This document shows positions 3,332 to 32,575 of a DNA stretch of 32,575 nucleotides, piece after piece. The notes under the pieces were generated by a model. That model was not told the DNA's origin. It searched no databases and saw only the letters and a program-made list of their open reading frames with translations. Within the stretch, counting starts at the first letter, position 1, and the number at the start of each line of letters is the position of its first letter. The translations under genes were made by a program, and so were the position numbers. The stretch is from a virus. The stretch lies in the IMG/VR virus record IMGVR_UViG_3300003886_000030, positions 1 through 32,575 of that record; one strand, written 5' to 3'.

Positions 3332-3502
3332 TTGCTCACTTTGTTTGTCTTTATTATTTATACTTTACTTTTAATCGGATGGGGCTATCTGGTTATGACG
3401 TTAAACTCGGACTTAATAACCGGCTTACTTATTGGTGCCATTACCATTGAAATGTACTATTGGCGAGTAACAAAACAGATAAGCCCGAATATAAATGACT
3501 AA
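3332..3502 (+). CDS. Plus-strand two-helix membrane peptide beside the lysis cassette
   Basis: A 56-aa frame starting with TTG (3332), preceded by a near-ideal AAGGAG (3320-3325) at 6-nt spacing. The protein begins LLTLFVFIIYTLLLIGWGY and has a second hydrophobic stretch ITGLLIGAITIEMYY, so two membrane helices, ending in WRVTKQISPNIND. A perfect TATAAT lies at 3296-3301, though without a good -35. It runs against the flow of all neighbours and overlaps the end of the ejection gene by 4 bp. Possible roles are superinfection exclusion, antiholin or host conversion; none is shown. The strong ribosome site is the main evidence that it is real. Confidence 0.6.
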   Translation: MLTLFVFIIYTLLLIGWGYLVMTLNSDLITGLLIGAITIEMYYWRVTKQISPNIND

Positions 3503-5532
3503 AGAGTCCCTGACGCACCCGCAATAAAACTCATTAATTTGTCGGAATTTCTCTCAGGAGAGACCCACCTAACAAACTGCTGAGGCCCCATAGTTTCTAT
3601 TTTCTTTGCCCAGCTTGGAAGTAAGTTACCTTTCTTTTCAATTTCCAGCAAGGTATCTTTTATTTCGTTAGTATCGCTAGTGAACAACCTGTCGGCTAAT
3701 TCTTTGTCGAGCCTAGAGTCCCTTGTCGCCGCTGTCATTCTTTTTATAAGGCGACTAACAGCCCACAAGTTTCCTGTGGTTGCCCCCCCTACGTCAGCTA
3801 TAGCGCTAGTATCAACGCTGAGTTCGGCTTGTAGCGCTTGATTTTTGGCAGTAGAAGAGTTCCCAGTAACTTTGTTTTTATTGTTATTAAATACCCTTTC
3901 CCTCTCCATTTCTCGTGCGAATTTTTTGAATTTTTTATTACTTCCAAACATTACCTCAATCGCTTCCCTCTGGTTTTCCGACCCGAATATTTTAGGATAA
4001 AGCGCGGGACTAACCCCTTCCAGAGTATCTTTTGTGTTTCTTATCACGCGAACAAGCTCATCTGCGGCACCAAGCCTATAAAGATCCTTTTCGGTAGATG
4101 ACATTCGATTAAACTGCTTTTTGCTTAACGAAGAATCCTTGCTTGATGATCGAAAAATGTTGCGCCCCTTATCCATCGCGTCTAAATTTTTAGCCGAATC
4201 CTCCCATACATTTCTTGCCGCCTTATAGGCTGGGTTTTGCTTGTCAATCTCATCAGAAATCATTCGTCTAACATTCCCGTAAATCCGCGCCTTATTGCCC
4301 CCGCCCTTAACCATTGGATTTATTAGTTTTTCCTCCATGTCGTCAACGGCTTTTTTCGTATAATCCCAAAGCAGCGTATTCGGATTATCGATGTCAATAT
4401 TCTTTATATTGTCAGGCAGATTCATGTCATCCTTTATGTTTTGAACCGCCTCTTTCATTGCCCTTTTTACGATGTCGTTATCTTTCAACGCCCTAAACAT
4501 TGGGGTGTCTTTTATTTCGGTCTCGTAAGCTGCCTTATATAGCGGCCCCGCCTCTTCGCCTCTTTGTCGAAAAATAGCGTCTTTTTTATCGTTGAAATCT
4601 TCACCGCTTATTTCATTTTCAATGTTTTCCTTGACTCTTCCGCGCTGGCCTTTTTGTCGTTTAAAATAGAATTTATTACCTTTATTCATTGCTCGTCCCG
4701 GCTGCTGAATAACTGCCTGAGAAAGCCCCATAACGTTATCGCCGCCAATATCCCCGACAGAGGCATTCGGCCCAAGCGACGCCATTCTGCGGCGAGCCTG
4801 TGTAGGGCTTATATTATCTTTGCCAAAAGCTTCGGATATTTTTCTCAAGGCTTTTGACTCTTGGCCCCTGAATACATCAGTTGACGCGCCGTAAGCCTTT
4901 CCAACGCCTTTTGCTATCAATGGCACCCCTACGCCAAAAGCCGCGCCTTGGCCCGCCCCTTTTAGCACGTCCATTGCCGTTTCCGTCGCAATGTCTGCTA
5001 TCGGTTGATTTGGGTCTTGATCAGAGTAGCCAGCACCAGCAATAGCGCCCGGAACTGCTCCGGCTGCCGCGTATTTCACGACTTTAGGTGCTCCAGCTAA
5101 TCTTCCGGCAACCCTAAGCCCGCCAATTCCGCCAGTCGCAAAACCCCCGGCAAGTTCGGCACCCATAGATTCCTTCGGGTATTCTTTGCGGAACTGCTCT
5201 TGCTCGTCCCTCGCCTCTGTGACAATCCGCTTGTAACTATCACCGAAAGACTCTTCGTCAGAAAAAAGCGAAGGAAACGATTGAATCGCCGCTGAAATTT
5301 CATCGCTTGTACCCAGCGTCGCCCCCTGAGCAAGCATAGATAACATGCCGCGCTTAAAGTCCGATTTATTTAGCTTTTGCGGCTCGGCTTCGCCCTCTAG
5401 GGCGGGTGTCTGCTGCATGTCTGATCGATCAGTAAATCCAGACATATTAGGCGCAATTTTAACGCTTTCATCTGATTGAGGCTGGAAATTAGACGACTTG
5501 TAACCCTCGTCGCTACGATCAACGAACTCCAT
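3499..5532 (-). CDS. Ejection/internal virion protein (P22 gp16-position)
   Basis: A 677-aa protein, last of three large proteins at the end of the virion operon, where P22 encodes gp7, gp20 and gp16. An N-terminal acidic region is followed by QGATLGTSDEISAA (about 70-83), which I recall from many phage ejection-type proteins. A glycine/alanine-rich, membrane-prone segment follows, about 130-215 (AGGFATGGIGG, AAAGAVPGAIAGAGYSD, GAGQGAAFGVGVPLIAKG). The rest is charged and helical. In P22 such proteins leave the virion with the DNA and help it cross the envelope. It overlaps the preceding gene by 14 bp. No lysozyme motif is evident. The role is inferred from order and composition. Confidence 0.7.
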   Translation of the reverse strand: MEFVDRSDEGYKSSNFQPQSDESVKIAPNMSGFTDRSDMQQTPALEGEAEPQKLNKSDFKRGMLSMLAQGATLGTSDEISAAIQSFPSLFSDEESFGDSYKRIVTEARDEQEQFRKEYPKESMGAELAGGFATGGIGGLRVAGRLAGAPKVVKYAAAGAVPGAIAGAGYSDQDPNQPIADIATETAMDVLKGAGQGAAFGVGVPLIAKGVGKAYGASTDVFRGQESKALRKISEAFGKDNISPTQARRRMASLGPNASVGDIGGDNVMGLSQAVIQQPGRAMNKGNKFYFKRQKGQRGRVKENIENEISGEDFNDKKDAIFRQRGEEAGPLYKAAYETEIKDTPMFRALKDNDIVKRAMKEAVQNIKDDMNLPDNIKNIDIDNPNTLLWDYTKKAVDDMEEKLINPMVKGGGNKARIYGNVRRMISDEIDKQNPAYKAARNVWEDSAKNLDAMDKGRNIFRSSSKDSSLSKKQFNRMSSTEKDLYRLGAADELVRVIRNTKDTLEGVSPALYPKIFGSENQREAIEVMFGSNKKFKKFAREMERERVFNNNKNKVTGNSSTAKNQALQAELSVDTSAIADVGGATTGNLWAVSRLIKRMTAATRDSRLDKELADRLFTSDTNEIKDTLLEIEKKGNLLPSWAKKIETMGPQQFVRWVSPERNSDKLMSFIAGASGTL

Positions 5533-6901
5533 ATTTAGCCCTCCACCCCTCTAATATCTCTTCTTTTGGCCGTCTTATTCTGCCGCCAGACTCGTCAACT
5601 TTCCATTGATTGTCTTCTATCCACTGATTGATGAAAATCGTTTTTCCGCTTACAGGGTTGACACCTAAAAGTGGGGTGTTGTTTATGTAGTCATCCCATT
5701 TTGATTTAACAGAAAAGCTATTCCTGTTCCCCCCCATTGCCTGTTCGTTATAAAATGCCGACTTATTCCTGAGCCTTATCGACTCCGAAAGCATTAGATT
5801 TGAAATGAATTGATTAGCCTCTTCTGGATTACTTAAATTCGCAAGCTCGTTTCTAGCTCTATTAGCATCTTTATCAGTCATTACCCCAGCTTGGATGGAC
5901 AGCTTTTCAGAGACAAGGCGCTCTTGTATTGATCTAAATCTGGCAACGTCATCAATGCTATCCAAAAACCCAATTGAATCATCATCCATTCCAGCCCAAG
6001 ACGCTAGAGCCGATGTAACTCTTTTCGACATATCAACTATTTCAGTTCCGGGGCCAGTGTTGACGTTGATCAATTGCTGGGCCTTAATTAAGCTAATTGT
6101 TGTAGCTGCTGACTCTGCCTTTTCTCCCGCATCATCCACTAATTTCTGAAACGATTTGGCGTTATATTCAGCCCCTTTTACTGCCGTAGTCTTCCTTGCT
6201 TCAAAATCAATCTCTTCTTCAGGTGATAAATTATTGTCGCCTTCGATGTTAACTAATGGCTGCTTTTGTCCGGGAGAATAACCCTCGATAGGTATCTGTC
6301 CGCCACGATTTCCAAACTGAACCAGCGAGCTATCCCCTTCTCTATTCGTGACCGACTGAGGCTGGCCGAATTTCTCTCGATATTTATCCTTTCCAGCGCT
6401 AAACATTGCAGCGCCTAGCTCGCTCATAACTCTAGCGGACTCTTCGCTGTACTCGCCTAAATCCGAAACATCAATCCCTTGCTGAGACAGAAATTCCTGC
6501 CCCCCAGACCATCTTTGACTTCTTGTCTGCTCATCTTCCGGCTCTAGAACCCAATTTGCATAACCCATCATTTGCTTCGCCTCTTCGGCGGCTTTCTTTC
6601 TTTCGCCCCCCTGTAGCCGCCTGACTCCTTCAATAGACTGAACAAGCTGCTGGCCTCGCTCTGGGTCTTGAGCCATTACTTGCTTAATCATTGATGTCTG
6701 CTGTCCGCTGGGAGCATTTAACGCACTGCTAGACATTTGCGACAATCGGCCCTGAAGTTCTTGCTTCCTTGCTCTATCGTCTATTTGACGCTCCATTTCT
6801 GACGTCTGCATTCTGTCCATTTTTATCGCTTGCCCCGCTCGATAAGCGCCGATCAAGTCTAACGGCTGCTGCCGCGTTAATATTGGCCTTGGCTGTATCA
6901 T
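5519..6901 (-). CDS. Ejection/internal virion protein (P22 gp20-position)
   Basis: A 460-aa, Gln-rich, mostly helical protein starting MIQPRPILTRQQPLDLIGAY. AAAGGA lies about 8 nt before the ATG. Residues 25-110 are charged and likely coiled coil (RQIDDRARKQELQGRL, RRLQGGERKKAAEEAKQ). A C-terminal helical domain runs about 230-400, and the end (NTPLLGVNPVSGKTIFIN..W) resembles the C-terminus of P22-type DNA ejection proteins as I remember them. It sits between two other ejection-type genes and overlaps the next by 14 bp, so the three products are probably made in fixed ratios. Confidence 0.68.
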   Translation of the reverse strand: MIQPRPILTRQQPLDLIGAYRAGQAIKMDRMQTSEMERQIDDRARKQELQGRLSQMSSSALNAPSGQQTSMIKQVMAQDPERGQQLVQSIEGVRRLQGGERKKAAEEAKQMMGYANWVLEPEDEQTRSQRWSGGQEFLSQQGIDVSDLGEYSEESARVMSELGAAMFSAGKDKYREKFGQPQSVTNREGDSSLVQFGNRGGQIPIEGYSPGQKQPLVNIEGDNNLSPEEEIDFEARKTTAVKGAEYNAKSFQKLVDDAGEKAESAATTISLIKAQQLINVNTGPGTEIVDMSKRVTSALASWAGMDDDSIGFLDSIDDVARFRSIQERLVSEKLSIQAGVMTDKDANRARNELANLSNPEEANQFISNLMLSESIRLRNKSAFYNEQAMGGNRNSFSVKSKWDDYINNTPLLGVNPVSGKTIFINQWIEDNQWKVDESGGRIRRPKEEILEGWRAKYGVR

Positions 6902-6964: not shown

Positions 6965-9900
6965 TTAATCAGCCCCGTAGGCCGCCGCGCCCACCTTAAT
7001 TCCGGTCTGTATAAGGCTGGAAATTCGGTCGGCTCGATTAGCCTTTATATTAGCGTTATTTGCATAATAATTTTGCAATAGGCTGCCCCTTTGAAGCGCA
7101 GCATTTGAAATTGCAGTGCCCCGCCTGTCAGCTATTCCAATATTTGTCGCTGTCGCCCCGGAATATGCGTTTAACAAATTAGCCGCAGCTCCGGCTTCTG
7201 CCGCCGAATCAGCAGCTAAATAATTAGTGTTAATCGAAGCATTTTCTAATTCATTTTGACCTGACAATCCTCCGGATGCCACTCTAAAGTTTGCCTCTAA
7301 AGATGACCTATCTAAGGCTAAGTTTGAATTTAAGTTCCCCAGCACTCCTTCAAGCTGCGAATCATACCCAGCATTAACAATCTCTCTGCCAGAGTTTATG
7401 CCGCCGACCTCTCGTGCATTGTTTGCGCCAACTCTCGCCAACTCTTCGGCCTGTCTAGACTCATACGCACCAATAAGTCGCGAAGAGTCAGACCGAATTC
7501 TACCAACGTTAAATGCTCTTTCCGAGTTTATGCTTCCGGCCCGATTAGTGGCTCCGCGAAAAATTGCCGCAAGATTAATGGCTTCGCGAGAATTTACATC
7601 CCCAACTTGTCGATATTGAGCGGATTCGCTCGAAGCAAGATTGCTAGCATTTGCCGCGACGATGTCGCCCTCCCGCCTTAATGCTCCGCTTCTCAGTTCC
7701 GCAATATCGGAGGCCATTCCCGCGTTAATTTGACCTGTGTATCTGGAGTTTCCCGCGTCATATTCTGCAATATTAAGATCGGCTTCTCCTCTTGCATTGC
7801 CAATATTTCTCGCGGCGGAGGATTCTATCCTGCCTATTTCTCGAGTAGCTCCGCCTCTTAATCTGGCCAGCTCTGAAAGTCTGTTTGAATCCGCTATCCC
7901 GGAATTTATCTTATTATTTGCCTCATACCCGGCAATTTCTAATGCGGTATCCGCTCTAACGTTTCCAGAATTTATTGCGGCAGTCGATCGGACATCGCCA
8001 ATTTGTCGTGCGGTAACACTTCTATAGCTGGCTATGTCTGATTGCCCTCTCGAATTCGCTAACGCCGACCTTTCCGCGTCTTCTGCATTAAACCCCGCCA
8101 CGGTTATTTCCGTGTCACCCCTAACTCGCCCTGACTCTCTAGCCGCGCCAGAATCAACTTTTCCAATTTGCCGGGCTGTATTTCCCCGCACGTTAGCCAA
8201 ATTTGTTGTTCTGTCCGCGTTGACTTCGCTCGAATATCTTAAGTTCTCAGCTTCAAAACCGGCGACTAAAGATTGCGCGTCCGCTCGTATGTCGCCAACG
8301 TCTCTTGCAGCACCGCCACGAATATTTCCGCGTGAAACTTCAAATCTAGTTAAAGCATCGGCCAAGTTTATTTCGGTGTTCGCTGCATTTGAGTTTGCAT
8401 TTGCCGCAATAGCTGCGTAATTACCGGCAGCGTTAAGGCCGCGACCCGATTGACCCGAGAGCACCTGAGACCGTCTATTTTGATCATTAACGAATCTGTT
8501 TCTAGCGTTATCAAAGTATTGTTGCCCAAAATTAACAGAATACTTGATAATATCTTTTATTACGTTACTGGTGATCCCGAGAGCTGAGCCGCGATTTTCT
8601 ATTGCGCTCTGGCCTTCTTCGAGGCCAAGTTGATAGCCCCCATCTTTCACTAAATCCTCATATCTAAACTCGCGAGTCAAGCTATCAAAGTCGTCCCGTA
8701 ATTTATTGCTAGCCCATTGCCCATTTTTAATCCACGGGGTAAATACCTCTTTAGCTTCTGCCTTTGTTTCGTCAAATCTGGCAATAGCCCTTTTCGCTCC
8801 GCCTCTTTGTATTCCTTCCGCAACGCCTATTGAATTAAGCTGAGACTCCGCCCCTTCGTTAACGCCCTTAATCCTAGACAATGAAGACTCATTGACGCCC
8901 GAGACCTGTCGAGTGGTATATTTACCCGACCCGTCAAGCAAAATATTGGAAGACTCATTGATCCCTGAAATATCGGTTCTTTGCGCTTCTCTTAACGCCT
9001 GCGTAGAAATCCTCCGCCCTGACTCGATTCCTTGCAAGTATCTTGCTTCTGCGTCTCTTGCGCCTTTTGATTTTGTTCTGGCGTACTTTCCATAACCGTC
9101 AATTAAGGTTCGAGTTGATTGGTTTATGCCGTCAACTTTAATCCTCTCAGATGACTTAAGCCCATTAATGGCAAATCTTTTTGACCTGCCGATTCCGTCC
9201 AACCGGCTAAACTCTGCCGCCCTTGCTCCCTTACCCTTCTCGCTTGCGTATTGACCATAACTCCGTATTAACGAATTTGCAGAGAGGTTCACACCGGTTA
9301 GTTCTTCATTTTTAGCCTTGTTAATGGCTTGAGACGCGATGGTTCTCTCATTAGAAATGCCGTCGATATAGCTATCTCTAGCATCTTGCGCCCCACTAAT
9401 CAGCGAAGAATTCGCCTTTCTAGACGCCCCGATAAGAGAAGACGCATAACCCTTTGCGGCTTTTACGTCAATGTCGGTAGCCCTGCTCAGTGCATTTACC
9501 AGCGCATTAGTGGCATCTTTCATGCCCTTTTGGTCTACTCTAGCCGCTCCATTAATCGAGTCACGTAAAAAATTAACTGATTTACTGATCGCCGATAAAT
9601 CAATTGTTTTTGATTTATTAACTGCGCTTAACAGGGCTTTAGCCGAATCGTTGGCAGCCTTAACCTCTCTTCCTGCCGAGTATCTTTCTGATCTCCTTAA
9701 AAAATCCGAAGAAACAATGATCCCCTTCATTTCTTCCGTCTTGGCCGCCCTAGCCGCTTTTAACGCAGATTCCGCCGCCCTGTTACTCCCGGACTTCTGA
9801 AGCCTAATTGATTCTTTTATTGAGCGGCTTAATATTCTTGAGGAATTGTTTAGGCCGCGCTGCTCTGATGTATACGCATTGAATAGCGTGTCCAGCATGG

Positions 9901-10285
9901 TAGACTTGTATTCGGCGTTGGCATTTAATTGCGCATCCCGGATATCAAGATTGTTTTTCTTAATAAACGTTAATAAATCACCGGTTATTTCTTCGGCCTT
10001 GATCCTCCCCTCTTCGACTAGCCTAATCTGCTCGGCTGCCGCAAGATTACTGGCCTCTAAAGCCTTATCTGTAGCTTTTTCTCCTGCATCCAAGGCCTCC
10101 CTCTGGCCTTGTAGCTGGGCGTCTGCTTGGGTTTTTCCTGTCACGGAATTGAATCCTGACTCGATCGCCCTGCCCGTCTTGCTGTTGGTGGCCCCCAGCA
10201 AGTCGCTAACACCAAAAGTCGAAACAGCCGCCGCCTCGTTAGCAACGGACTTTACTCCTCTCCAAGCCTTTTTATGAAAAGCCAT
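6965..10285 (-). CDS. Giant repeat-expanded DNA transfer protein (P22 gp7-position)
   Basis: 1106 aa from the ATG at 10285, chosen because GGGA lies 7 nt upstream and it follows the previous stop by 1 nt; an ATG at 10312 would overlap that gene. The start MAFHKKAWRGVKSVANE resembles phage ejection proteins. A central domain (about 505-640) has the recurring phage pattern FTPWIKNGQWASNKL ... GYQLGLEEGQSAIENR ... NYAAIAANAN. It is flanked by long repeats: residues about 320-485 (units starting GVN/GIN, 55 residues apart) and about 650-975 (units VR.DT....AG...N, also 55 apart). Fifty-five is five 11-residue turns, as in hendecad helices. The C-terminus is ANRADRISSLIQTGIKVGAAAYG. It probably forms or lines an extended ejection structure; that part is inference. 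Confidence 0.72.
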   Translation of the reverse strand: MAFHKKAWRGVKSVANEAAAVSTFGVSDLLGATNSKTGRAIESGFNSVTGKTQADAQLQGQREALDAGEKATDKALEASNLAAAEQIRLVEEGRIKAEEITGDLLTFIKKNNLDIRDAQLNANAEYKSTMLDTLFNAYTSEQRGLNNSSRILSRSIKESIRLQKSGSNRAAESALKAARAAKTEEMKGIIVSSDFLRRSERYSAGREVKAANDSAKALLSAVNKSKTIDLSAISKSVNFLRDSINGAARVDQKGMKDATNALVNALSRATDIDVKAAKGYASSLIGASRKANSSLISGAQDARDSYIDGISNERTIASQAINKAKNEELTGVNLSANSLIRSYGQYASEKGKGARAAEFSRLDGIGRSKRFAINGLKSSERIKVDGINQSTRTLIDGYGKYARTKSKGARDAEARYLQGIESGRRISTQALREAQRTDISGINESSNILLDGSGKYTTRQVSGVNESSLSRIKGVNEGAESQLNSIGVAEGIQRGGAKRAIARFDETKAEAKEVFTPWIKNGQWASNKLRDDFDSLTREFRYEDLVKDGGYQLGLEEGQSAIENRGSALGITSNVIKDIIKYSVNFGQQYFDNARNRFVNDQNRRSQVLSGQSGRGLNAAGNYAAIAANANSNAANTEINLADALTRFEVSRGNIRGGAARDVGDIRADAQSLVAGFEAENLRYSSEVNADRTTNLANVRGNTARQIGKVDSGAARESGRVRGDTEITVAGFNAEDAERSALANSRGQSDIASYRSVTARQIGDVRSTAAINSGNVRADTALEIAGYEANNKINSGIADSNRLSELARLRGGATREIGRIESSAARNIGNARGEADLNIAEYDAGNSRYTGQINAGMASDIAELRSGALRREGDIVAANASNLASSESAQYRQVGDVNSREAINLAAIFRGATNRAGSINSERAFNVGRIRSDSSRLIGAYESRQAEELARVGANNAREVGGINSGREIVNAGYDSQLEGVLGNLNSNLALDRSSLEANFRVASGGLSGQNELENASINTNYLAADSAAEAGAAANLLNAYSGATATNIGIADRRGTAISNAALQRGSLLQNYYANNANIKANRADRISSLIQTGIKVGAAAYGAD
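7361..8335 (-). repeat. 165-bp/55-aa coding repeats, C-terminal block
   Basis: Consecutive units such as RVRGDTEITVAGF... and NVRADTALEIAGYE... are exactly 55 residues long, each made of five 11-residue segments with a hydrophobic V/I/L near fixed positions and motifs AR.IG.V.S.AAR..G. About five to six units can be followed, decaying toward the C-terminus. Units differ in DNA sequence, so the expansion is old or under diversifying drift. Confidence 0.7.
8831..9328 (-). repeat. 165-bp/55-aa coding repeats, N-terminal block
   Basis: Three clear units begin GVNLSANSLIRSYGQYA, GINQSTRTLIDGYGKYA and GINESSNILLDGSGKYT, 55 residues apart, with weaker ones before them. The common core is a Gly-Lys-Tyr near position 14 and KGAR.AE near 22. 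The period equals that of the C-terminal block although the consensus differs. Confidence 0.68.
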
Positions 10286-10286
10286 T

Positions 10287-10673
10287 CTATAATCCCATCC
10301 AATTTGCGCCATCAAAAATAACGGTAACTGCTTTATATTGCCCAGTTATTGGCAGAGTGTTAATTGGCAATGCTAATACTGAACCCGGTGTTAATATCGT
10401 CACATTATTTGCTCCGCTATCTATTTTTCTAATGATGTATTTTTTTGAATACCCAATGTCATTGGGAAGCGTTATCTCAACATCCCCAGACGTACAATCG
10501 CAATAAATAATCGTGTCAGTTTCCAGCGCTAAATAATCAGAGGTTACCTCGGTGAAATATTCGTAATTTCTGTCATGCCGAATAAAAGCATTATAAAAGC
10601 TAAACATCCAATGAAAAAGAAAGGCGGGAGATAATAACGATTCATTAGGGGCTTGAGGCGTCGGCCACCTCAT
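10287..10673 (-). CDS. Virion protein in the gp26 (tail needle) slot, unknown
   Basis: A 128-aa protein between the gp10-like and gp7-like genes, where P22 has the tail needle gp26. It is not a long coiled coil like gp26. An N-terminal region MRWPTPQAPNESLLSPAF is followed by a beta-rich domain from about residue 50, with TSGDVEITLPNDIGYSKKY, IRKIDSGANNVTI and a final VIFDGANWMGL. This compact beta pattern (TLP..., KKIDSSANTVTI-like) is common in phage fibres and tail accessory proteins. Its ATG overlaps the gp10-like stop. It may be a plug or a short receptor-binding piece at the tail tip; the exact role is unknown. Confidence 0.65.
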   Translation of the reverse strand: MRWPTPQAPNESLLSPAFLFHWMFSFYNAFIRHDRNYEYFTEVTSDYLALETDTIIYCDCTSGDVEITLPNDIGYSKKYIIRKIDSGANNVTILTPGSVLALPINTLPITGQYKAVTVIFDGANWMGL

Positions 10674-12223
10674 ACGCTTAACTGCTCGGTGTCAATGTAC
10701 GCGTCAGTTAGGCATATTGTTGTGTTATCGCGAGTAGTCGAACCAAAGCTGTAATCACTGGTAATTCGGTAAAGTCTTTTTATGGACGCCCCTAAAGCAT
10801 AAAATTCTAATAAACCGCTATTTTGCCGTATATCAAAAGCCCCCATTTCCTCCCATGTCTTGCCCTCATCGTCCGACCTTGCTACTTCCACCATTACAGG
10901 GGTTATCAATGCAATAAGGGTGAACTTCAGCTTTAAATACCTATGAATTAATTGCTTTTCATCGGCCCCCTCTATATATCTTGATGTCATTGAAACCAAT
11001 TTCGTCAATGGCTGGCCTGATACTGTGGCTTCCACGTTAAGCCACATCTCATATGAGTGAATTTCATTTGAGCTTACTACTTGCCCAGATGATCCTATGC
11101 TTGAAGCTGGGATTACTAGATTTAGCTGCTCGTTCCCTTTTGCGGCCATATCAATAATACCGTAAGAATCATAGGCGTACTTGCTCATTTCATCGGGACT
11201 AGAGCTTTCTTTTGACCACATACCAGAGCTCAATCTATAAACCCAAGTTCCAACTTCCGGCTTATTGAAATTAAGAATATAAAGCTCGGTATCTGATATT
11301 AACAGCTTTCTTCCGAGGGAATTTTTTGCAAAAATAAGGTTCTTATCCAGCTTTGATAGCTGGCTTTTTAGCTTTTTAGGGGTTATGTCTATTAAAGTGT
11401 ATCCAGACGTTCTATAAACCGCTACACCCCCGCCTTCTTTTTCTCCCAAAAATATAGAAAAATCGCCAAACTTAACTAGCGATCCAACCGAATATAGCCC
11501 TACCTTAATGTTTGCCGATGAATTTCTTAACAAAGGAAAGCCCGAGTTTGCTGCGTTATACCAGATTGATGTATTCTGGCTGCTCATGACCCATAGTTCG
11601 CGATTATCGGTAAAGTGACCCACTAACACTCCGGAATTAGATTCAATTACAGCAAATCTGGATGTATCAAAATCCACTCCACCCAATATGGTTGAATACA
11701 CCCTGTTAGCAAGGGTGCTAATAAAAAAGAACCCGTCCAAATAGCTAAGCCCGTTTATTTGCTGATTATTATTTAAGTCATTAATCGAGAGCGTATCGAG
11801 TGATGGGTCAAATCGCATGTTAACTACTATAGTTTTCGTCTCAGAAGCCATTGCTATTAATAGCTTGCCATTATCCTCCCTCTTTCCCTCAGCCCATAAA
11901 ACTCTTGTATTAAAAACAAACGGGACTGCACCGACGTTGCGTATAACGCCATTTTCATCCATAGACTTTAAACTAGTCAGGCCTAAAGACCTTAATAAAA
12001 AATATATTCTAGCCTGAAAAGAAAACGTCTGAGGGACGATGAAAACACCTAAAATCCGATCAGAAGAGTTATTCGTTGAATAAAAAAGCTTTGTTCCCGG
12101 CATTTTTCTGAAAATTGCCGTTTCTTTTTCGGCTGAAAAGTCAACCGTCATATTTACGCACTCGGAAGCTGAAATGGAATTATTCCAGCTTGTCCCAGTA
12201 TCGCCAAAAAGATTTACTCTCAT
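10670..12223 (-). CDS. P22 gp10-like packaged DNA stabilisation / tail hub protein
   Basis: 517 aa, close in length to P22 gp10 (472 aa). The N-terminus (GDTGTSWNNSISASECVNM, then KMPGTKLFY) and a beta-propeller-like body with many short strands match the phage stabilisation protein family (gp10, Pfam Phage_stabilise), which closes the portal channel below gp4. Its ATG overlaps the gp4-like stop (ATGA) and the gene runs directly into the tail-tip candidate. Identification rests on gene order, size and the N-terminal pattern; no database search was run. Confidence 0.78.
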   Translation of the reverse strand: MRVNLFGDTGTSWNNSISASECVNMTVDFSAEKETAIFRKMPGTKLFYSTNNSSDRILGVFIVPQTFSFQARIYFLLRSLGLTSLKSMDENGVIRNVGAVPFVFNTRVLWAEGKREDNGKLLIAMASETKTIVVNMRFDPSLDTLSINDLNNNQQINGLSYLDGFFFISTLANRVYSTILGGVDFDTSRFAVIESNSGVLVGHFTDNRELWVMSSQNTSIWYNAANSGFPLLRNSSANIKVGLYSVGSLVKFGDFSIFLGEKEGGGVAVYRTSGYTLIDITPKKLKSQLSKLDKNLIFAKNSLGRKLLISDTELYILNFNKPEVGTWVYRLSSGMWSKESSSPDEMSKYAYDSYGIIDMAAKGNEQLNLVIPASSIGSSGQVVSSNEIHSYEMWLNVEATVSGQPLTKLVSMTSRYIEGADEKQLIHRYLKLKFTLIALITPVMVEVARSDDEGKTWEEMGAFDIRQNSGLLEFYALGASIKRLYRITSDYSFGSTTRDNTTICLTDAYIDTEQLSV

Positions 12224-12879
12224 TCAGGGTCTCTAGAGTCTTTAATCAATCCCTGTATCATATTCTTACCGTCTCCAGCTAACATCGCAAGCTCCGGCGT
12301 TACTGGCTTTCCGTATTCCGGCGCAAGGTCTACAGCGAGGTTCATTGTTAGACCTCGAATCCAAGGGCCGGGTAAGGCTATGATGTCACCAGCATTAGCG
12401 ATGTGCGCTATTTCCTTAAGAGAAGTTATGTGCAAAGTCTCAGTGGACAAAGTTGTCCTATCAAATCTTATTGTCGCTAATTCAATATAATCCGAGTCAG
12501 TTGTCTCAAAGTAAAACGCTTCGGGGCGGTTTATGGATACACCTTTTGCCGGTAATGACGCGTACTGCTTATCGTTAAGCTCAACGAGCATATGATCAAC
12601 GTTCTCGATATCCCTGAAAAACATAGCTGATATCTTAACGGGCTTTGTCGTGTGCATATCGCCGCTAACCCCCATGCTTAGCTCTGATATCGACCCGGCA
12701 ATTGAGAATTGCTCTGTCTGCTTATATGGCAGCAATAATTCTTCATAAGACCACGAGGACTTCAGCATATTAAGAGCGCTTAAAGCTGCCGCCGTCTGAT
12801 CCGGGCTAGGGGATGCACCAACTGCCAAAACCCCAAGTTTACGCAATGCCCCGTCAATTATATCGCTTCCTGTTGCCAT
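12220..12879 (-). CDS. P22 gp4-like tail accessory / head completion protein
   Basis: 219 aa. The N-terminus IDGALRKLGVLAVGASPSPDQ followed by ALSALNMLKSSWS is the typical helical opening of P22 gp4-type proteins, which bind below the portal and form the head-tail joint. The end EYGKPVTPELAMLAGDGKNMIQGL also fits that family. I take the ATG at 12879, whose A is shared with the upstream stop (TGATG), over a TTG one codon earlier. No gp4 lysozyme-type activity can be judged from the sequence. Confidence 0.8.
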   Translation of the reverse strand: MATGSDIIDGALRKLGVLAVGASPSPDQTAAALSALNMLKSSWSYEELLLPYKQTEQFSIAGSISELSMGVSGDMHTTKPVKISAMFFRDIENVDHMLVELNDKQYASLPAKGVSINRPEAFYFETTDSDYIELATIRFDRTTLSTETLHITSLKEIAHIANAGDIIALPGPWIRGLTMNLAVDLAPEYGKPVTPELAMLAGDGKNMIQGLIKDSRDPE

Positions 12880-13226
12880 CAAAAATACTCCGATTTAAAA
12901 ACTTCTGGCGTGTAATCCTGATTCATCCCCTGCACGAGCTGAATAAATCCGGCTCTCTCCTCAGACTTTAACTGATTGTGAATCGCCCTAGGAACGACAA
13001 ACTCACTTACAGCCTCCGCAGAAACTATCTTTTTTAAGGGCTGAACCGCCCAACCGGGGATTTCGCCGTTAATATCCCAAGTCGTTAAGCTGTCATTCTG
13101 AAGGTTGCTATAAACGGTATCATAAACCAAAGAAACCGCCGACATGTCAGTTGTAGAAGCTGACTGGCCAATGCGTATCTTCCCGATATTCCGCAAAACA
13201 ACATTCAGAAAGTCGGCTTTAGTCAT
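12879..13226 (-). CDS. Second small connector-type protein, distant gp4-like
   Basis: 115 aa. The opening VVLRNIGKIRIGQSASTTDMSAVSLVYD echoes the gp4 N-terminus of the next gene (LR.(I/L)G....G.S.S..D..A), suggesting a shortened relative that would also bind the portal or head completion ring. It continues with WDINGEIPGWAVQPLKKIVSAEAVSEFVVP. Start and stop overlap both neighbours by one base, so translation is coupled. In other P22-like phages this slot may hold a separate head-closure protein. The relation to gp4 is an inference from the N-terminal pattern only. Confidence 0.68.
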   Translation of the reverse strand: MTKADFLNVVLRNIGKIRIGQSASTTDMSAVSLVYDTVYSNLQNDSLTTWDINGEIPGWAVQPLKKIVSAEAVSEFVVPRAIHNQLKSEERAGFIQLVQGMNQDYTPEVFKSEYF

Positions 13227-15425: not shown

Positions 15426-17237
15426 CTATTCCTGAATAACAACTCCGTCAATATATGGCGCATTCATCATTTGCATCATCTCGGCTTCATTCAGAGCTGC
15501 CTTTGTTTCTTTTTCTGATGACTGCGCGTTTTTATATCTAATCTCTGCTTCCTTCTCTTTCTCTATCTGCTGAGCTTGCTGCTGCCCTGCCTGCGCCTGC
15601 TGTTCCTGCTGCTCTTTAGTACCCCTAATGCTTTCGATTAGCTTATATTTATCCCTAATCTGTGACGCTTCAATTACCGCTTCAAGCGGTATTTCTGGAC
15701 GCGACATTGCCAGTTGCGATATTATCTCAAATTGTTCTTGCTGAATATTTGCGGTATCCGGCATGTCTTGAAGCACAAAGTCAACATCTAAGTCAGATAT
15801 TTGATTTTCAGTGTCAACAACTGCATTTAATCTCGGGTCTCCCTCTATTTCAGGGGGGATTTGACCGTATTTTTCAATTATCTTATCTTTCATTGTTACT
15901 TTTTTATTAATTCCAACCCACTTTGAAGAGGTTTCATCGTCAGTGACTCTCATCCACTTTTCTTCTTTCCAGAATTGTCGCGCCATATTCCACACCGCCC
16001 GATAAACCCTAACATCCAGCGAACGCAACCCATCGAAAATCGCTCCTATCTCTGTCGAACTTTGCTGTGACCTCTGTATCAAAGCTCGACCGGACATATT
16101 GCGCGACTCTTTCCCTGACATCGCCGCATTAACGCCGTGAACGTCCATTTCGTTTTTTGCTTCCTGCAACAATTCAAATTGGTATGACGTCATGTCATTT
16201 GTCGGCAAAATGCCGAAATCTTTGCCAAACTCGCCGTATTCAATTTCAATGTGCCCGTCTGCCTTATGCAGCTCTCGCTTTGCTTTTGCGGGGCCGTCCT
16301 CGCCAAACGACCTTTTATTTCCATATGTTTGTCTGGTGCTAGACAAATGCAGAGCCTTGTTCCTACGCTTGTTTATTTCATCTTGAAGGCCTAATATCTG
16401 CTTAACTGGCCCATAACGATTACCCTCGCGATCAACCGACGCACTTTGAAATAATAAATTTGAAAAAGGCTCTCCGTTTTCATCTAAAAACGGCGAAACT
16501 TGAGGCTCAACCAAGAATCCGCCAGCAGTGAAATACGAGTAATGCCATACCTCCTCATGAAGGAAGGTGATGTAACAAACTTTAACCCTTTTTCGGGTCT
16601 TATCCCCCCAAGAAATCGAAGGCTTATCTTCGAAAGTGTCGCTGCTGCTGTACTCGTAACCCAAGCTCAGCACATCTTCTTTGTCTTTTCCGAACTTATT
16701 GACGCCGTCGGCGTGATCCATCCAGATTACTACACCCTTAACTTTTGCTTCGGAGAAATCCTCTAATCTAGAATAGTGATCCCAAAACATTCTATCCCAA
16801 AATATATCGTTAACAGTGATTTCAAATCCATCCCTTCCGGGCTTAACGTTTAGCTCGTACCCGCAAGAACCCTCTATCTGTAGATTTTTATGCGCTCTAG
16901 ACCTCTTTTGATTGTAATCATTATTATCCATGATGTACCGAACCGTATCAGTAGCCGTGTTTGCGTCCATATCATGCTTAGGCGTTCGAGGGAATGCTTT
17001 CGGGTCAGTTCTTACTTGTCGCTCTAAACCTAGAGCAAAGTCAATTTTAACTTTTATTCTATTGTTTACAATTGACGGCTGACCTCTTTTGTTATTAATT
17101 CTTATTTCTTCGTCGGTTAGCTGGTAGCTATCGTAATAATCGCGACACTTTTCGGACTCCGCTCGTGACTCGTACGTCGCATTAATAAAGTTTTCGTAAT
17201 GATCAATTAAAGTCTGTAATTCTATGATGTTTTCCAA
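15426..17237 (-). CDS. Portal protein, P22-like
   Basis: 603 aa, between large terminase and scaffold. The opening LQTLIDHYENFINATYESRAESEKCRDYYDSYQLT, with RRG-like NNKRGQPSIVNN and DFALGLERQVRTDPKA, is the pattern of P22-type portals. A central region has QILGLQDEINKRRNKALHLSS, and the end is a long Gln/Glu-rich helix (EQQEQQAQAGQQQAQQIEKE), comparable with the C-terminal barrel helix of P22 gp1. It forms the dodecameric ring through which DNA enters and leaves. It overlaps the large terminase gene by 16 bp. Confidence 0.87.
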   Translation of the reverse strand: MENIIELQTLIDHYENFINATYESRAESEKCRDYYDSYQLTDEEIRINNKRGQPSIVNNRIKVKIDFALGLERQVRTDPKAFPRTPKHDMDANTATDTVRYIMDNNDYNQKRSRAHKNLQIEGSCGYELNVKPGRDGFEITVNDIFWDRMFWDHYSRLEDFSEAKVKGVVIWMDHADGVNKFGKDKEDVLSLGYEYSSSDTFEDKPSISWGDKTRKRVKVCYITFLHEEVWHYSYFTAGGFLVEPQVSPFLDENGEPFSNLLFQSASVDREGNRYGPVKQILGLQDEINKRRNKALHLSSTRQTYGNKRSFGEDGPAKAKRELHKADGHIEIEYGEFGKDFGILPTNDMTSYQFELLQEAKNEMDVHGVNAAMSGKESRNMSGRALIQRSQQSSTEIGAIFDGLRSLDVRVYRAVWNMARQFWKEEKWMRVTDDETSSKWVGINKKVTMKDKIIEKYGQIPPEIEGDPRLNAVVDTENQISDLDVDFVLQDMPDTANIQQEQFEIISQLAMSRPEIPLEAVIEASQIRDKYKLIESIRGTKEQQEQQAQAGQQQAQQIEKEKEAEIRYKNAQSSEKETKAALNEAEMMQMMNAPYIDGVVIQE

Positions 17238-19376: not shown

Positions 19377-21323
19377 TCACCTCTCCGGCCTAATCCTTAT
19401 AACGCTTTCTTCGTGCCTTATGCGCACCAAATACCCCACCACACCAGATAAGCCAGCAAATATATCGCTAGCGCTAACGCTGTAGGACGAAGATTCTAAA
19501 GTTAAGCTTTGACTTAAATCAAAACCTAGGTCATTTTCTAAAACCGTAAAACCTGAAGACTCTAAAGTTAAAGTTTGACTTAAATTAAAACCCAAATCAT
19601 TTCCCAGAACTGTGAAACCTGAAGATTCTAGGGTAAAAATTGGTCTTAAATCAAAATCTAAATCATTTCCCAGTACCGCGAAACCTGAAGATTCTATGGT
19701 TAAAGCTGGGCTTAAATCAAAATCTAAATCATTGCTCAGAACTGTAAAGTCTGAAGATTCTAGGGCCAAAAATTGATTTGAACTAAAATTTAAATCATTG
19801 CCTAGAACTGTGAAGCCTGAAGATTCCAAAGTTACACTTTGACTTAAATTAAAACCTAAATCACTACCGAGTAGTGTAAAACCCGTAGACTCTAAAGCTA
19901 CACTTTGTCTAACATTAAAACCAAGATCATTACTCAGAACCGAAAAGCCCGAAGATTCTAGGGCTGCGCTTTGGCTAAAATCAAAACCTAAATCATTCCC
20001 AAGAACCTCAAAACCCGAAGATTCTAAAGCTGCGGTTTGGCTGAAATTAAAGCCCAGATCATTGCCCAGAACCGCAAAGCCCGCAGGCTCTAAAGTTACA
20101 CTTTGGCTTAAATCAAAATCTAAATCATTTCCCAGTACCGTAAAACCCGAAGATTCTATGGTTACACTTTGGCTAAAATCAAAACCTAGGTTATTGGTAA
20201 GAACCGTAAAAACCAAAGATTCTAAAGTTTCACTTTGCTCCCCAATGCTTTCAGCAGCCCCTGTTGAGATAAACGCCGATGGATTATTTTGGTTGTTATA
20301 TGATGTAGCTATTTCAGGTGCAGAAAGAACCTCATTATAGATGCTAAATTCTGACACAGCTCCAGCTAAAAAAGCCACAGGGGAAGACCTGACTAATGCT
20401 GATATTGACGAGCTATCAAGGGTTAATGGGGTAGGTGTGTAATTAAAATCAGTGGCGTCTAAGATGCCGTCGATATAAACATTTACTATACCATTGTTAT
20501 CAACCCATGTCAGTAAGTGATCAGTGCCATCAAAAACAGGTAATGTAGATTTAATGCGGTTTGCACTTACGAAAGAATTGTCCCCGCGAATGTAAGCGGA
20601 TAATTCCGGCCCTAATCCGTCAGCCTCAGTGCCTAAAGTAAAAAGCGGGGTATTACTGGAGGATGAACCCTCACCATATAGCCGCAAATTATCTTGGAAA
20701 TTCGGCACATTAACCCACATTTGAATCGAATAACCAGTTGACTTATGCGCCAATGCTGAGTTAATAGTCAAATAATCATTAACGCCATCAAATTCTAAAC
20801 CATTGCCAATTTTTCCAGCAATTAAATCATTGCTTGCCATTCCCCCGTTAGAAGTGTAATGATTTCCAGACCCAGATGAGTCAATCATTTGTGGAGCGCC
20901 GCCAGAAGGGTCTTGCTCTAAATGTAAGCTACAAATTCGATTCGGCCTATAAACATTAAAGCGGCCATATAAATCACCGGCAGCATAAGCACTTAATAGC
21001 GAACTTCCGTACTCAACATAAAACCTAGTATCAACGAGCGATGATAATAACCACCCAGCCCCACTAATCCATATTTGACATTCACCATCGCCTGCCCCTA
21101 AAGCGCTATCAGGGGTAATTGAGACAACTTCGAAAGCAAGCTCATTTGTTTGATCGTCATTTTGATATACACGGGTATTTGCCGCTGTAATTCTTTTAGA
21201 ATTCGTAGGATCAAAAGCGCTATCTGGGAAATTTGCGCGTGACAACAGAACGGGCATATACGTGATATCGGCGACAACCTGTGTCGCTAAAATATCAAGC
21301 GGTAACCTATGCGTATTCGCCAC
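19377..21323 (-). CDS. LamG tail fibre / receptor-binding protein with 22-aa repeats
   Basis: 648 aa from a GTG at 21323, 6 nt after the preceding stop. Residues about 20-125 resemble the DUF2341-type module (FPVLL..., VYQNDD..NELAFEV, WISGAGWLLSS, FYVEYG). Residues about 130-345 form a LamG/concanavalin-type jelly roll (GLEFDGVNDYLTI, YSIQMWVNVP, VNVYIDG, AGAVSEFSIYNEVLSAPEI). Residues 368-609 are eleven tandem 22-residue repeats, then a tail SDIFAGLSGVVGYLVRIR. DUF2341-LamG pairs are typical of carbohydrate-binding phage fibres. No head-binding domain like the P22 tailspike is seen, and the gene lies upstream of terminase, unlike P22. It is probably the host-recognition or decoration protein. 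Confidence 0.75.
   Translation of the reverse strand: MANTHRLPLDILATQVVADITYMPVLLSRANFPDSAFDPTNSKRITAANTRVYQNDDQTNELAFEVVSITPDSALGAGDGECQIWISGAGWLLSSLVDTRFYVEYGSSLLSAYAAGDLYGRFNVYRPNRICSLHLEQDPSGGAPQMIDSSGSGNHYTSNGGMASNDLIAGKIGNGLEFDGVNDYLTINSALAHKSTGYSIQMWVNVPNFQDNLRLYGEGSSSSNTPLFTLGTEADGLGPELSAYIRGDNSFVSANRIKSTLPVFDGTDHLLTWVDNNGIVNVYIDGILDATDFNYTPTPLTLDSSSISALVRSSPVAFLAGAVSEFSIYNEVLSAPEIATSYNNQNNPSAFISTGAAESIGEQSETLESLVFTVLTNNLGFDFSQSVTIESSGFTVLGNDLDFDLSQSVTLEPAGFAVLGNDLGFNFSQTAALESSGFEVLGNDLGFDFSQSAALESSGFSVLSNDLGFNVRQSVALESTGFTLLGSDLGFNLSQSVTLESSGFTVLGNDLNFSSNQFLALESSDFTVLSNDLDFDLSPALTIESSGFAVLGNDLDFDLRPIFTLESSGFTVLGNDLGFNLSQTLTLESSGFTVLENDLGFDLSQSLTLESSSYSVSASDIFAGLSGVVGYLVRIRHEESVIRIRPER
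19497..20222 (-). repeat. Eleven 66-bp tandem repeats in the fibre gene
   Basis: The unit ESSGFTVLGNDLGFDLSQSV plus two residues is repeated eleven times with exact 22-residue spacing and no indels; a decayed twelfth (ESSSYSVSASD) follows. Invariant positions are E1, F5, L8, D11 (except N in the first copy) and F14. Variation is mostly at positions 6, 9, 13 and 15-21. Exact 66-bp spacing allows slippage or unequal recombination without frameshift, so copy number may vary between phages. Confidence 0.9.
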
Positions 21324-26166: not shown

Positions 26167-26417
26167 CTTTTTTCGTCCTTATCTTGATTGATTTTATCGA
26201 TCGCATAACTGTCAGCGTCGAGTATGATTAGTCTAGTAACTTTATTGACAATGGCGCTTGACAAGTCATTGGGTTCGCCTCTTTCTACACCTTTGATCAA
26301 ATCTAAAACTAAAAGCCGGATTGACTCGTTTTCCGCTATTTCGTGCATGGCGTCAACCAAATCTAATTCTTCCAGCGATTCAATGTACTCATCCTTGTAA
26401 TCAGTGAAATCGGTCAT
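26163..26417 (-). CDS. Small acidic hypothetical protein
   Basis: 84 aa, strongly acidic and helical, starting MTDFTDYKDEYIESLEELDL and ending KINQDKDEKR. It is coupled by 4-bp overlaps to the pentapeptide gene and the nuclease gene. No family recognised. Small acidic proteins at this place may act as host nuclease inhibitors (DNA mimicry, as lambda Gam-type functions), but no motif shows this. Confidence 0.6.
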   Translation of the reverse strand: MTDFTDYKDEYIESLEELDLVDAMHEIAENESIRLLVLDLIKGVERGEPNDLSSAIVNKVTRLIILDADSYAIDKINQDKDEKR

Positions 26418-26983
26418 TTCGGCCTTACCTTTTGAATAATTTCATCGATTTGAATTATCGCGTCACCCATGATATCGTCAAAAGTATCTGGTTTGTCTGA
26501 CAAGTAGAATTTCCCCGCCGCTTTTTCTATTTCATCCGGCCAAATACCAATAACCCTAATATCTCTCCACTCTGTTTCGTACAAATCGGCTCCACTCCAT
26601 TTGGCGTTAGTTAATTCCGATCCGTTGAATTTAGCGCCCCTAAAATTTCCGCCACGCAAATCAGCATCTTTCAGGTTCCTCCCCTGTAAATCTGCAAATC
26701 GTAAGTCAATTGATTTTAATACCGCGACCTCAAGGCAAACTTTAAAAGATTCGCAGTCAAACGAGAAAATAACCGTGCCATTCGCCCAATTCATTATTTG
26801 ATAAGCTTTAGTTTCTAGCTTACTTTCAAGCCCAAGACTTAGGGAAATCTCATCCTTCAAAAGCTCGCTAAGCAGGCAAAATACCTTTCTTTTCTCGAAT
26901 GCGCTAACAAGCGCCCCGCTGATCACTTTTGACTGTATGTCTAATGCAATTGTAAGATTTTCCGCTTTTGCTGATTTATTCAT
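26414..26983 (-). CDS. Pentapeptide-repeat protein, first gene of the recombination operon
   Basis: 189 aa. Residues about 91-140 are some ten A(D/N)LXX-type pentapeptides (SIDLRFADLQGRNLKDADLR, then GGNFRGAKFNGSEL), forming a short right-handed quadrilateral beta helix. The first 85 residues are a non-repeat helical/beta domain and the C-terminal 45 are acidic. In other proteins such as Qnr and MfpA this fold mimics DNA and binds gyrase; with only about two and a half coils here, that role is open. It is first behind a strong early promoter, with AAGGAAAA upstream of the ATG, so it is made early. Confidence 0.75.
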   Translation of the reverse strand: MNKSAKAENLTIALDIQSKVISGALVSAFEKRKVFCLLSELLKDEISLSLGLESKLETKAYQIMNWANGTVIFSFDCESFKVCLEVAVLKSIDLRFADLQGRNLKDADLRGGNFRGAKFNGSELTNAKWSGADLYETEWRDIRVIGIWPDEIEKAAGKFYLSDKPDTFDDIMGDAIIQIDEIIQKVRPK

Positions 26984-30286: not shown

Positions 30287-30452
30287 AGAAAAGTTAATCC
30301 GCAGGTTTGAAAAATGGCCGCGAGAATATGCATGCGACATTATCGCGCTCAAAGATCGAGAGCAGATGATTGAGGCCATGAAGCTTGTGCCCGATCACTT
30401 TAAACAAATGGCCGGGCGACATGTTAATTCTATGTTGCGCAAACTTAAATAA
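30273..30452 (+). CDS. Small conserved-looking phage protein with apparent ATC start
   Basis: 59 aa. The body RRFEKWPREYACDIIALKDR, EQMIEAMKLVPDHF and KQMAGRHVNSMLRKLK has the layout of small phage proteins with ...I...R.EM...VP.H....V..HV..... at the end. In this frame a stop lies at 30246, and no ATG, GTG or TTG occurs until 30366, inside the protein. GGAG (30262-30265) stands exactly 7 nt before ATC at 30273, so ATC may be the start; otherwise the ribosome would have to shift from the overlapping membrane-protein frame. It is 13 bp ahead of the Tad2-like gene. A sequencing error is the third option. Confidence 0.6.
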   Translation: MKKNKEKLIRRFEKWPREYACDIIALKDREQMIEAMKLVPDHFKQMAGRHVNSMLRKLK

Positions 30453-30465
30453 AATGGAGATAAAA

Positions 30466-30951
30466 ATGAGCGGTAAAGTAAAGGGAAACCAATTTAACCT
30501 ATTAGATAATACAGAGCTATATATTGGCACTAAAACTTCTATGGCAAAAGAGATGAATAGAGCTGATTATAACAGGTTTCGTGGCTGGAGCTTACCGGAC
30601 AATGAAGACGGTAATGATAATGGGTATATCGTACAATATGCTAATGGTTATGTGTCGTGGAGTCCAGCAGATCAGTTTAATGAGGCGTACAAAAAGACTA
30701 GTGGGTTAAGTTTTGGCTTAGCCATAGACGCGATGAAAAAAGGAAAAGCAGCAAGGCGATTAGGGTGGAACGGAATAGGAATTTTTATCGGCATCCAATA
30801 TCCGTCAAATCTTAGCAAGATGACATCCCCGTATCTATTTATCGACACTACGGGGCTTAAGACGTCAAATGAAGACGCCCCAAAAAGCTTAGTTCCATGG
30901 CTAGCGTCTCAAACCGACATGCTGTCAACTGACTGGGTAATACTGGACTAA
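30466..30951 (+). CDS. tad2: Tad2-like (DUF2829) anti-Thoeris protein
   Basis: 161 aa from the ATG at 30466 (GGAG 6 nt upstream). Residues 80-161 are the DUF2829 domain: LSFGLAIDAMKKGKAARRLGWNG, PYLFIDTTG and VPWLASQTDMLSTDWVIL. An extra N-terminal domain (1-75; IGTKTSMAKEMNRADYNRF, RGWSLP, YANGYVSWSP) is one I recall from longer phage DUF2829 proteins. Tad2 proteins are known to bind and sequester the signal nucleotide made by Thoeris, so that the effector is not triggered. The gene is last in the Cro-led operon and ends at a terminator. The symbol is by domain only; ligand binding is untested. Confidence 0.82.
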   Translation: MSGKVKGNQFNLLDNTELYIGTKTSMAKEMNRADYNRFRGWSLPDNEDGNDNGYIVQYANGYVSWSPADQFNEAYKKTSGLSFGLAIDAMKKGKAARRLGWNGIGIFIGIQYPSNLSKMTSPYLFIDTTGLKTSNEDAPKSLVPWLASQTDMLSTDWVILD

Positions 30952-32122: not shown

Positions 32123-32575
32123 TTTTCAACTTCCCCGTTTATATAATTTCCATCAAAATCATCACGCGCCCAGTCAGGGATTTCGCTGTTATCAATTCCG
32201 GTGGATTTTGTTGATTTATCCGACTCACTCATCCATTCGCATTTAAAGCCCCGCCACCCGCTCGACTCGGCCTTGGCAATGCAAACGGACACGGTAAAGC
32301 CTAAGTCTACGGCTAGGTGCAATTCCTTCCCCGTGGTGTCAATTGCTGACTGACTTATCGACCCCTTGTTACGCTTTTTCATGATTAACCAATCTTTTAG
32401 CAGTTTTTCGTCTGGCTTTTCAGGCCAAGAATCAAAATTTAGTTTTTTAATATTTTTAGGCTTGATCTTTTTTGTCTCTGTCTCTGTCTCTGTCTCTGTC
32501 TCTGTCTCTGTCTCTGTCTCTGTCTCTGTCTCTGTCTCTGTCTCTGTCTCTAGAGGATCACATTGATATCGACCT
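32119..32575 (-). CDS. O-like replication initiator, C-terminal part
   Basis: Continuation of the gene that starts at 399; 32485-32575 repeats the left end. After the Glu-Thr linker the sequence KKIKPKNIKKLNFDSWPEKP, LLKDWLIMKKRNKGSISQSA, LAVDLGFTVSVCIAKAESS and GWRGFKCEWM is the typical C-terminal domain of phage O-like and DnaT-like replication proteins (W...P...L.DW...RK..K...S...I), expected to contact the helicase loader. It ends 3 nt into the P-like gene. The in-frame join was checked by codon phase across the junction. Confidence 0.85.
   Translation of the reverse strand, partial: GRYQCDPLETETETETETETETETETETETETETKKIKPKNIKKLNFDSWPEKPDEKLLKDWLIMKKRNKGSISQSAIDTTGKELHLAVDLGFTVSVCIAKAESSGWRGFKCEWMSESDKSTKSTGIDNSEIPDWARDDFDGNYINGEVEK
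32473..32550. repeat. (TGTCTC)13 microsatellite
   Basis: Thirteen perfect 6-bp units in the circular map (eleven of them repeated at 1-66). On the coding minus strand the unit is GAGACA, giving Glu-Thr 13 times in the initiator. The 6-bp period preserves the frame whenever units are gained or lost. No interruption is present, which suggests recent slippage or selection for uniformity. Confidence 0.95.

Follow-up and report, generated by a model that had tools for sequence, protein, structure and literature searches.

A P22 gp7-type ejection protein with two long arms of 11-residue repeats around a conserved core

The stretch of DNA analysed here, called the window below, is the 32,575 nucleotides of IMG/VR record IMGVR_UViG_3300003886_000030. 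It carries genes for the small and large terminase subunits, a portal protein, a coat protein (Phage_capsid_3) and gp4-like and gp10-like proteins. These are followed by a 128-aa gene, the 1116-aa protein that concerns us, a 460-aa gene and a 677-aa gene. This is a P22-type late operon, and in P22 the positions of the 1116-, 460- and 677-aa genes are occupied by gp7, gp20 and gp16. The 1116-aa gene thus lies after gp4 and gp10 and before two more ejection genes, an order it shares with its relatives. The initial annotation started the protein at 10285. The methionine there directly follows the stop of the upstream gene, so we keep it as the likely start. The 460-aa protein has no significant family match. 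The family matched by the 677-aa protein is one of unknown function, and the sole match of this protein in the phage records searched is in Rhizobium phage RHph_I1_23. The nearest known relatives of the portal are the cyanophages CBW1004C-Prop1, Pam5, Pan3 and Pam1 at 33-40% identity. CBW1004C is a cyanobacterial strain. These portal relatives suggest, from sequence, a cyanobacterial host for the window phage.

Table 1. Position of the long ejection protein, its parts and its neighbours in the window
Feature	Coordinates	Strand	Details
gp7-type ejection protein ORF	6965..10315	-	1116 aa; TTG at 10315, likely Met start at 10285
N-terminal leader	9953..10315	-	residues 1-121; low-confidence start, then helix (sequence and model pLDDT)
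N arm	8831..9952	-	residues 122-495; 34 unbroken 11-residue units; hydrophobics recur at 11/3; proline-free
Conserved DNA-ejection core	8297..8812	-	residues 502-673; phrog_598, family alignments, profile that picks P22 gp7
C arm	7247..8398	-	residues ~640-1023; ~34-35 uninterrupted 11-residue units, significant 5x11 super-period
C-terminal tail	6968..7246	-	residues 1024-1116
P22-type portal protein	15426..17237	-	PF16510, E 7.4e-92
gp4-like head-tail adaptor	12220..12882	-	phrog_12985 / phrog_637
gp10-like head closure/stabilisation protein	10670..12223	-	phrog_578 Hc3
Second ejection-protein gene (P22 gp20 position)	5519..6901	-	460 aa; assigned by position
Third ejection-protein gene (P22 gp16 position)	3499..5532	-	677 aa; assigned by position; phrog_5880, E 4.7e-64

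The identity of the protein comes from its core. Residues 502-673 match phrog_598 'DNA ejection' in PHROGs (E 1.7e-7), and a Pfam search of the 1116-aa protein gave no match. A profile built from ten family cores, the window's included, picks P22 gp7 from a three-protein set (E 2e-7) and matches neither gp20 nor gp16. The best viral Foldseek matches include models named 'DNA transfer protein p32', which is an alias of phrog_598, and 'internal virion protein'. We call the protein P22 gp7-type because it sits at the P22-like position in the gene order and the profile matches P22 gp7; it shares core homology and gene position with that family. Family match, profile match and gene position agree, so the first reading of this gene as an ejection protein with a conserved transfer core stands. 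T7 gp14, an outer-membrane ejection protein, is placed in the same role class as gp7 (PMC8954989), and is likened here by role, not by sequence.

Relatives were hard to find. With the whole protein against phages tblastn returned matches to the core only. In IMG/VR no close relatives came up with the full-length protein, the 677-aa neighbour or the portal by itself as query, and relatives were retrieved only once family alignments were used as queries. This yielded 173 distinct complete homologs from IMG/VR, phage records and genomes. A scan of the genome collection had matches in four Acinetobacter genomes only. In 398 genomes of one phylum the phrog_598 matches are open frames of 76-411 aa. 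Two phrog_598 matches in bacterial genomes (L260 and L264) have internal stop codons and are probably decaying prophage copies.

The sequence on each side of the core is an 11-residue (hendecad) repeat. The autocorrelation has peaks at all multiples of 11 through 110, and no other lag is comparably strong. The maximum is at lag 55 in both the N block (residues 71-500, z 10.9) and the C block (residues 641-1050, z 13.8), and the core has no signal at multiples of 11. A phase tracker with an 11-column profile assigns residues ~122-495 to a single uninterrupted phase and residues ~639-1023 to a second; residues 122-180 stay in phase even though they are outside its training range. The initial annotation described two repeat blocks with a 55-residue period flanking the core. 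Both blocks are real. Their basic unit is 11 and not 55, and the C block begins before the family core has ended, within its final stretch, which corrects the earlier boundary. The 5x11 super-period was tested by shuffling the order of the 11-mers 5000 times. It is clear in the C arm (z 4.2, reached in 0/5000 shuffles) and modest in the N arm (p 0.004-0.009).

The repeat is old. Synonymous codon identity at lag 55 is 0.31 and 0.34 against a background of 0.30 and 0.31, so the repeat is invisible in the DNA, and only short repeats are seen at the DNA level. We considered a recent duplication or an assembly artefact and ruled both out, since the units have no DNA-level likeness beyond what the protein demands.

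There is good reason to think the arms are helical. Pro, Cys, His and Trp are each absent from all 758 arm residues, and the rest of the protein is proline-poor too (0.3% versus a family median of 2.4%). The continuous 11-residue register comes with the 11/3 non-polar periodicity expected of a hendecad coiled coil. It is borne differently in the two arms. In the N arm the large hydrophobics follow 11/3, hydrophobic power at this period is 29 and the net charge is +20. In the C arm, which is nearly lysine-free, the 11/3 signal is borne by the small residues (Ala, Gly and Ser, power 37) and the large hydrophobics are weaker there. They peak at 11/4 and 11/5, above 11/3, so the C arm is not a simple amphipathic helix. 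Its pattern is two-faced, hydrophobic and small.

Plotted on an 11/3 wheel, the large hydrophobics of each arm fall in one sector and the small residues in another, with 91 degrees between the two sectors in the N arm and 159 degrees in the C arm. The two arms show opposite orders of hydrophobic-polar-small in at least 99.6% of bootstraps, and the relative L083 (IMGVR_UViG_3300042861_000002) has the same reversal. Opposite face order is what one would expect if the arms lie antiparallel side by side. We infer two-faced helices in which large residues of one pack on the small face of its neighbour, with the N and C arms antiparallel. An estimate of ring size from the face angles was dropped. 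The values of ~4 for the N arm, ~17 for the C arm and 7 for L083 disagree and define no single barrel.

The initial annotation expected long helices, and they are predicted, with moderate confidence, in the window protein and in L083. AlphaFold2 was run on a single chain with 35 family sequences, residue 1 of the model being residue 11 of the ORF. The model is all helix (97-200, 253-349, 361-445, 463-531, 573-713, 734-829 and shorter ones) with no strand, and its helical stretches are 70-140 residues long at moderate confidence. Mean pLDDT is 64, with ~77-92 around the core and ~35-85 in the arms, and pTM is 0.36; a single-chain model carries no information on assembly. The L083 model is also all helix without strand (mean pLDDT 70.8). 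Foldseek matches in the PDB are nonspecific long helices, and no E-value falls under 0.001.

Within its hendecad-armed family the window protein is the extreme case. The 173 homologs have a median of 263 aa, a 95th percentile of 451 and a maximum of 992, so the window protein exceeds all of them. It also lies outside the ~200-345 aa that is typical of gp7-type proteins, a size that does not define the class, and the size range of known gp14/gp7-type proteins is narrow (181-240 aa; PMC8954989). P22 gp7 has 229 aa and, unlike the window protein, lacks 11-residue periodicity (z 0.7); the window protein is about five-fold longer through its two hendecad arms. Lag 11 is the strongest in 70 of the 173 homologs, where ~3 would be expected if all lags were equal. 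We therefore regard the hendecad repeat as a family trait. The phrog_598 family has short helical tails, and many of its short members have the periodicity too.

L083, at 557 aa, has half the size of the window protein. It has 11-residue repeats before and after its core, and the order of the faces in its N and C arms is that of the window protein, but its repeats are Gly/Thr/Asn-rich and more uniform and the phase of its C arm relative to the core is shifted by 7. Phase relative to the core agrees between the window protein and several relatives, and is off by 7 in the L083 lineage. Shorter 11-residue arrays occur in L039 (417 aa) and L017 (364 aa). The 992-aa homolog (L129, with a near-identical match in L254) is an expansion of another kind. 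It is long through proline-rich, unrelated inserts and its 11-residue periodicity is confined to the C tail. L129 (2781-5756) also has a duplicated stretch of ~60 residues (~70-125 and 465-520) ahead of its core.

If the arms are built of helical units then relatives should differ in length by such units, as the initial annotation proposed for units of 11 or 55. This was found for 11. Gap lengths in pairwise alignments peak at 11, but we set them aside because periodic sequence biases gap placement. In their place we measured arm length between fixed anchors (the protein end and a core landmark) and counted events on a spanning tree, which limits non-independence among relatives. Among pairs whose anchored arm lengths differ by at least 5 residues, the difference is a multiple of 11 for 101 of 161 in the N arm and for 72 of 89 in the C arm, and the remainder are mostly 7 or 7+11n. 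On the tree 17 of 49 events are multiples of 11 (4.5 expected, p 7e-7). Counting 7+11n as well gives 29 of 49 (p 2e-10), and this is the weaker of the two figures since that class was defined after the data were seen. Many tree steps of 3-6 residues occur too. Core lengths are not enriched for multiples of 11 (192 of 3297 pairs). Steps of 7, 11 and 18 residues correspond to 2, 3 and 5 alpha-helical turns, so they support helical arms independently of structure prediction.

It is conceivable that the arms are not helical at all, and are instead a beta-solenoid or disordered low-complexity sequence. The hydrophobicity peak of the C arm at 11/5 is 2.2 residues, near the strand period, and pLDDT is low in places. 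However, strand is absent from both AlphaFold models, the arms have no proline, and the indel steps hold helix phase and not strand phase. We regard non-helical arms as highly improbable.

Another possibility is that the expansion is neutral or driven by packing. Helical tails would tolerate duplicated units, and the arms would be filler that the head accommodates. Any helix tolerates steps of 7 and 11, the extreme length is rare among homologs, and other relatives have unrelated long extensions, the proline-rich 992-aa protein being an example. Yet each arm keeps its register unbroken for over 370 residues, without proline and without DNA-level similarity between units. This implies that the helix pattern has been under selection for a long time, and we consider tolerated filler unlikely.

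We argue with some confidence for a functional route: the short tails of a P22 gp7-type protein were amplified into arms that would form a long helical section of the DNA conduit. The P22 virion ejects ~12 gp7, 12 gp16 and 30 gp20 (PMC8402733). Its ejection proteins are thought to form a periplasmic conduit, with gp7 suggested for the virion-proximal part (PMC8402733). In our scenario two short helical tails would have expanded by units of 11 residues, each worth three turns, into arms of ~34 hendecads each. Copies would leave the head ahead of the DNA. Their arms would then associate by the slightly right-handed packing of hendecad helices into a long alpha-helical sleeve or barrel, which would be part of the DNA conduit from the virion to the cytoplasm. 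With a large-hydrophobic face and a separate Gly/Ala/Ser face one helix could contact two neighbours. As a straight helix an arm would be ~56-58 nm long, and a hairpinned protein would give a conduit section of that order. It must be noted that tubes have been shown in vitro for a gp20-type protein (the Sf6 homologue) and not for gp7 (PMC8402733), which counts against this proposal.

The nearest working parallel is the H tube of phiX174. H is an ejected protein whose tube, an alpha-helical coiled coil, begins with three hendecads and serves as a DNA conduit, a precedent for hendecad helices lining such a passage (PMC7354561). Its hendecads are followed by 11 heptads and it belongs to a different virus class, so the likeness is in working only. 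In a sequence search for homology to H no PDB chain matched the window protein up to E 10.

Hendecad helices of the 11/3 type can also be amphipathic helices that bind lipid, as in apolipoproteins and alpha-synuclein. The arms might help the protein to enter the outer or inner membrane or to cover its surface. The N arm would suit this, with 11-residue repeats, 11/3 hydrophobic periodicity and positive charge, and published assignments place gp7/gp14-type proteins in the outer membrane (PMC8954989). Lipid binding does not account for two separate faces, since a single broad apolar face would be expected, and it does not predict a super-period of 55. The C arm is short of lysine and has no strong 11/3 hydrophobic moment. 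We find membrane binding a rather poor explanation for the arms and prefer the conduit.

A conduit whose length depends on a repeat raises the question of whether it is a ruler. The initial annotation suggested one that fits a thick or unusual cell envelope. Arm length would then match the conduit to the distance across that envelope, much as tape-measure proteins determine the length of a tail. Some siphophage tape-measure proteins have an 11-unit or mixed 11-11-18 pattern in which the number of units varies (PMC3271669). The 11-residue steps recall these proteins, and an unbroken register suggests a constraint on length. However, they belong to long-tailed phages and have Trp/Phe markers, and the window arms have no Trp. 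The setting differs as well: the window has a P22-type portal, coat, gp4 and gp10, and no tail-tube family was found among the window proteins scanned. The comparison among phages also goes against an envelope ruler. The four cyanophages nearest by portal have gp7-like proteins of 203-307 aa. In 24 further portal relatives these are 160-540 aa (the shortest cut by a contig end) and none has hendecad-rich arms. No preference for 55-residue steps was seen between relatives. A fit to an unusually thick envelope is therefore doubtful. The wider tape-measure reading, that in short-tailed phages such as this one the number of hendecads in gp7-type proteins sets the length of a transient DNA conduit, is to us an improbable one as well.

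Judged by sequence, the window phage carries the longest hendecad-armed example found so far, and in the searchable literature we came upon no account of 11-residue repeats in the ejection proteins of podoviruses. Natural variants in this family run from ~200 to 1116 aa and differ for the most part by steps in the two arms that preserve helix phase, so the number of units can be related to conduit length, oligomeric state and infectivity. The helix-matched steps make a length-adjustable DNA conduit a testable idea. Our PDB searches found no solved relative in the gp7-type class, and the hendecad pattern supplies a specific hypothesis for its structure, in which two-faced helices make up a sleeve or barrel.

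The window has several other features. A 648-aa ORF contains a 66-bp (22-residue) tandem repeat in 11.4 copies (19488-20237) and a laminin-G/ConA-like lectin domain, and is probably a tail fibre or appendage protein. A 188-aa ORF (30385-30951, plus strand) has a Tad2-like (Thoeris anti-defence) domain (Pfam PF11195, E 3e-18). A pentapeptide-repeat protein (26414-26983, minus strand) lies near a YqaJ-type recombinase gene. Both contig ends carry a perfect TGTCTC microsatellite, with 11 copies at 1-67 and 13 at 32473-32551. The record may be that of a circular genome, or of one with repeats at its ends, which was split within the TGTCTC repeat during assembly.
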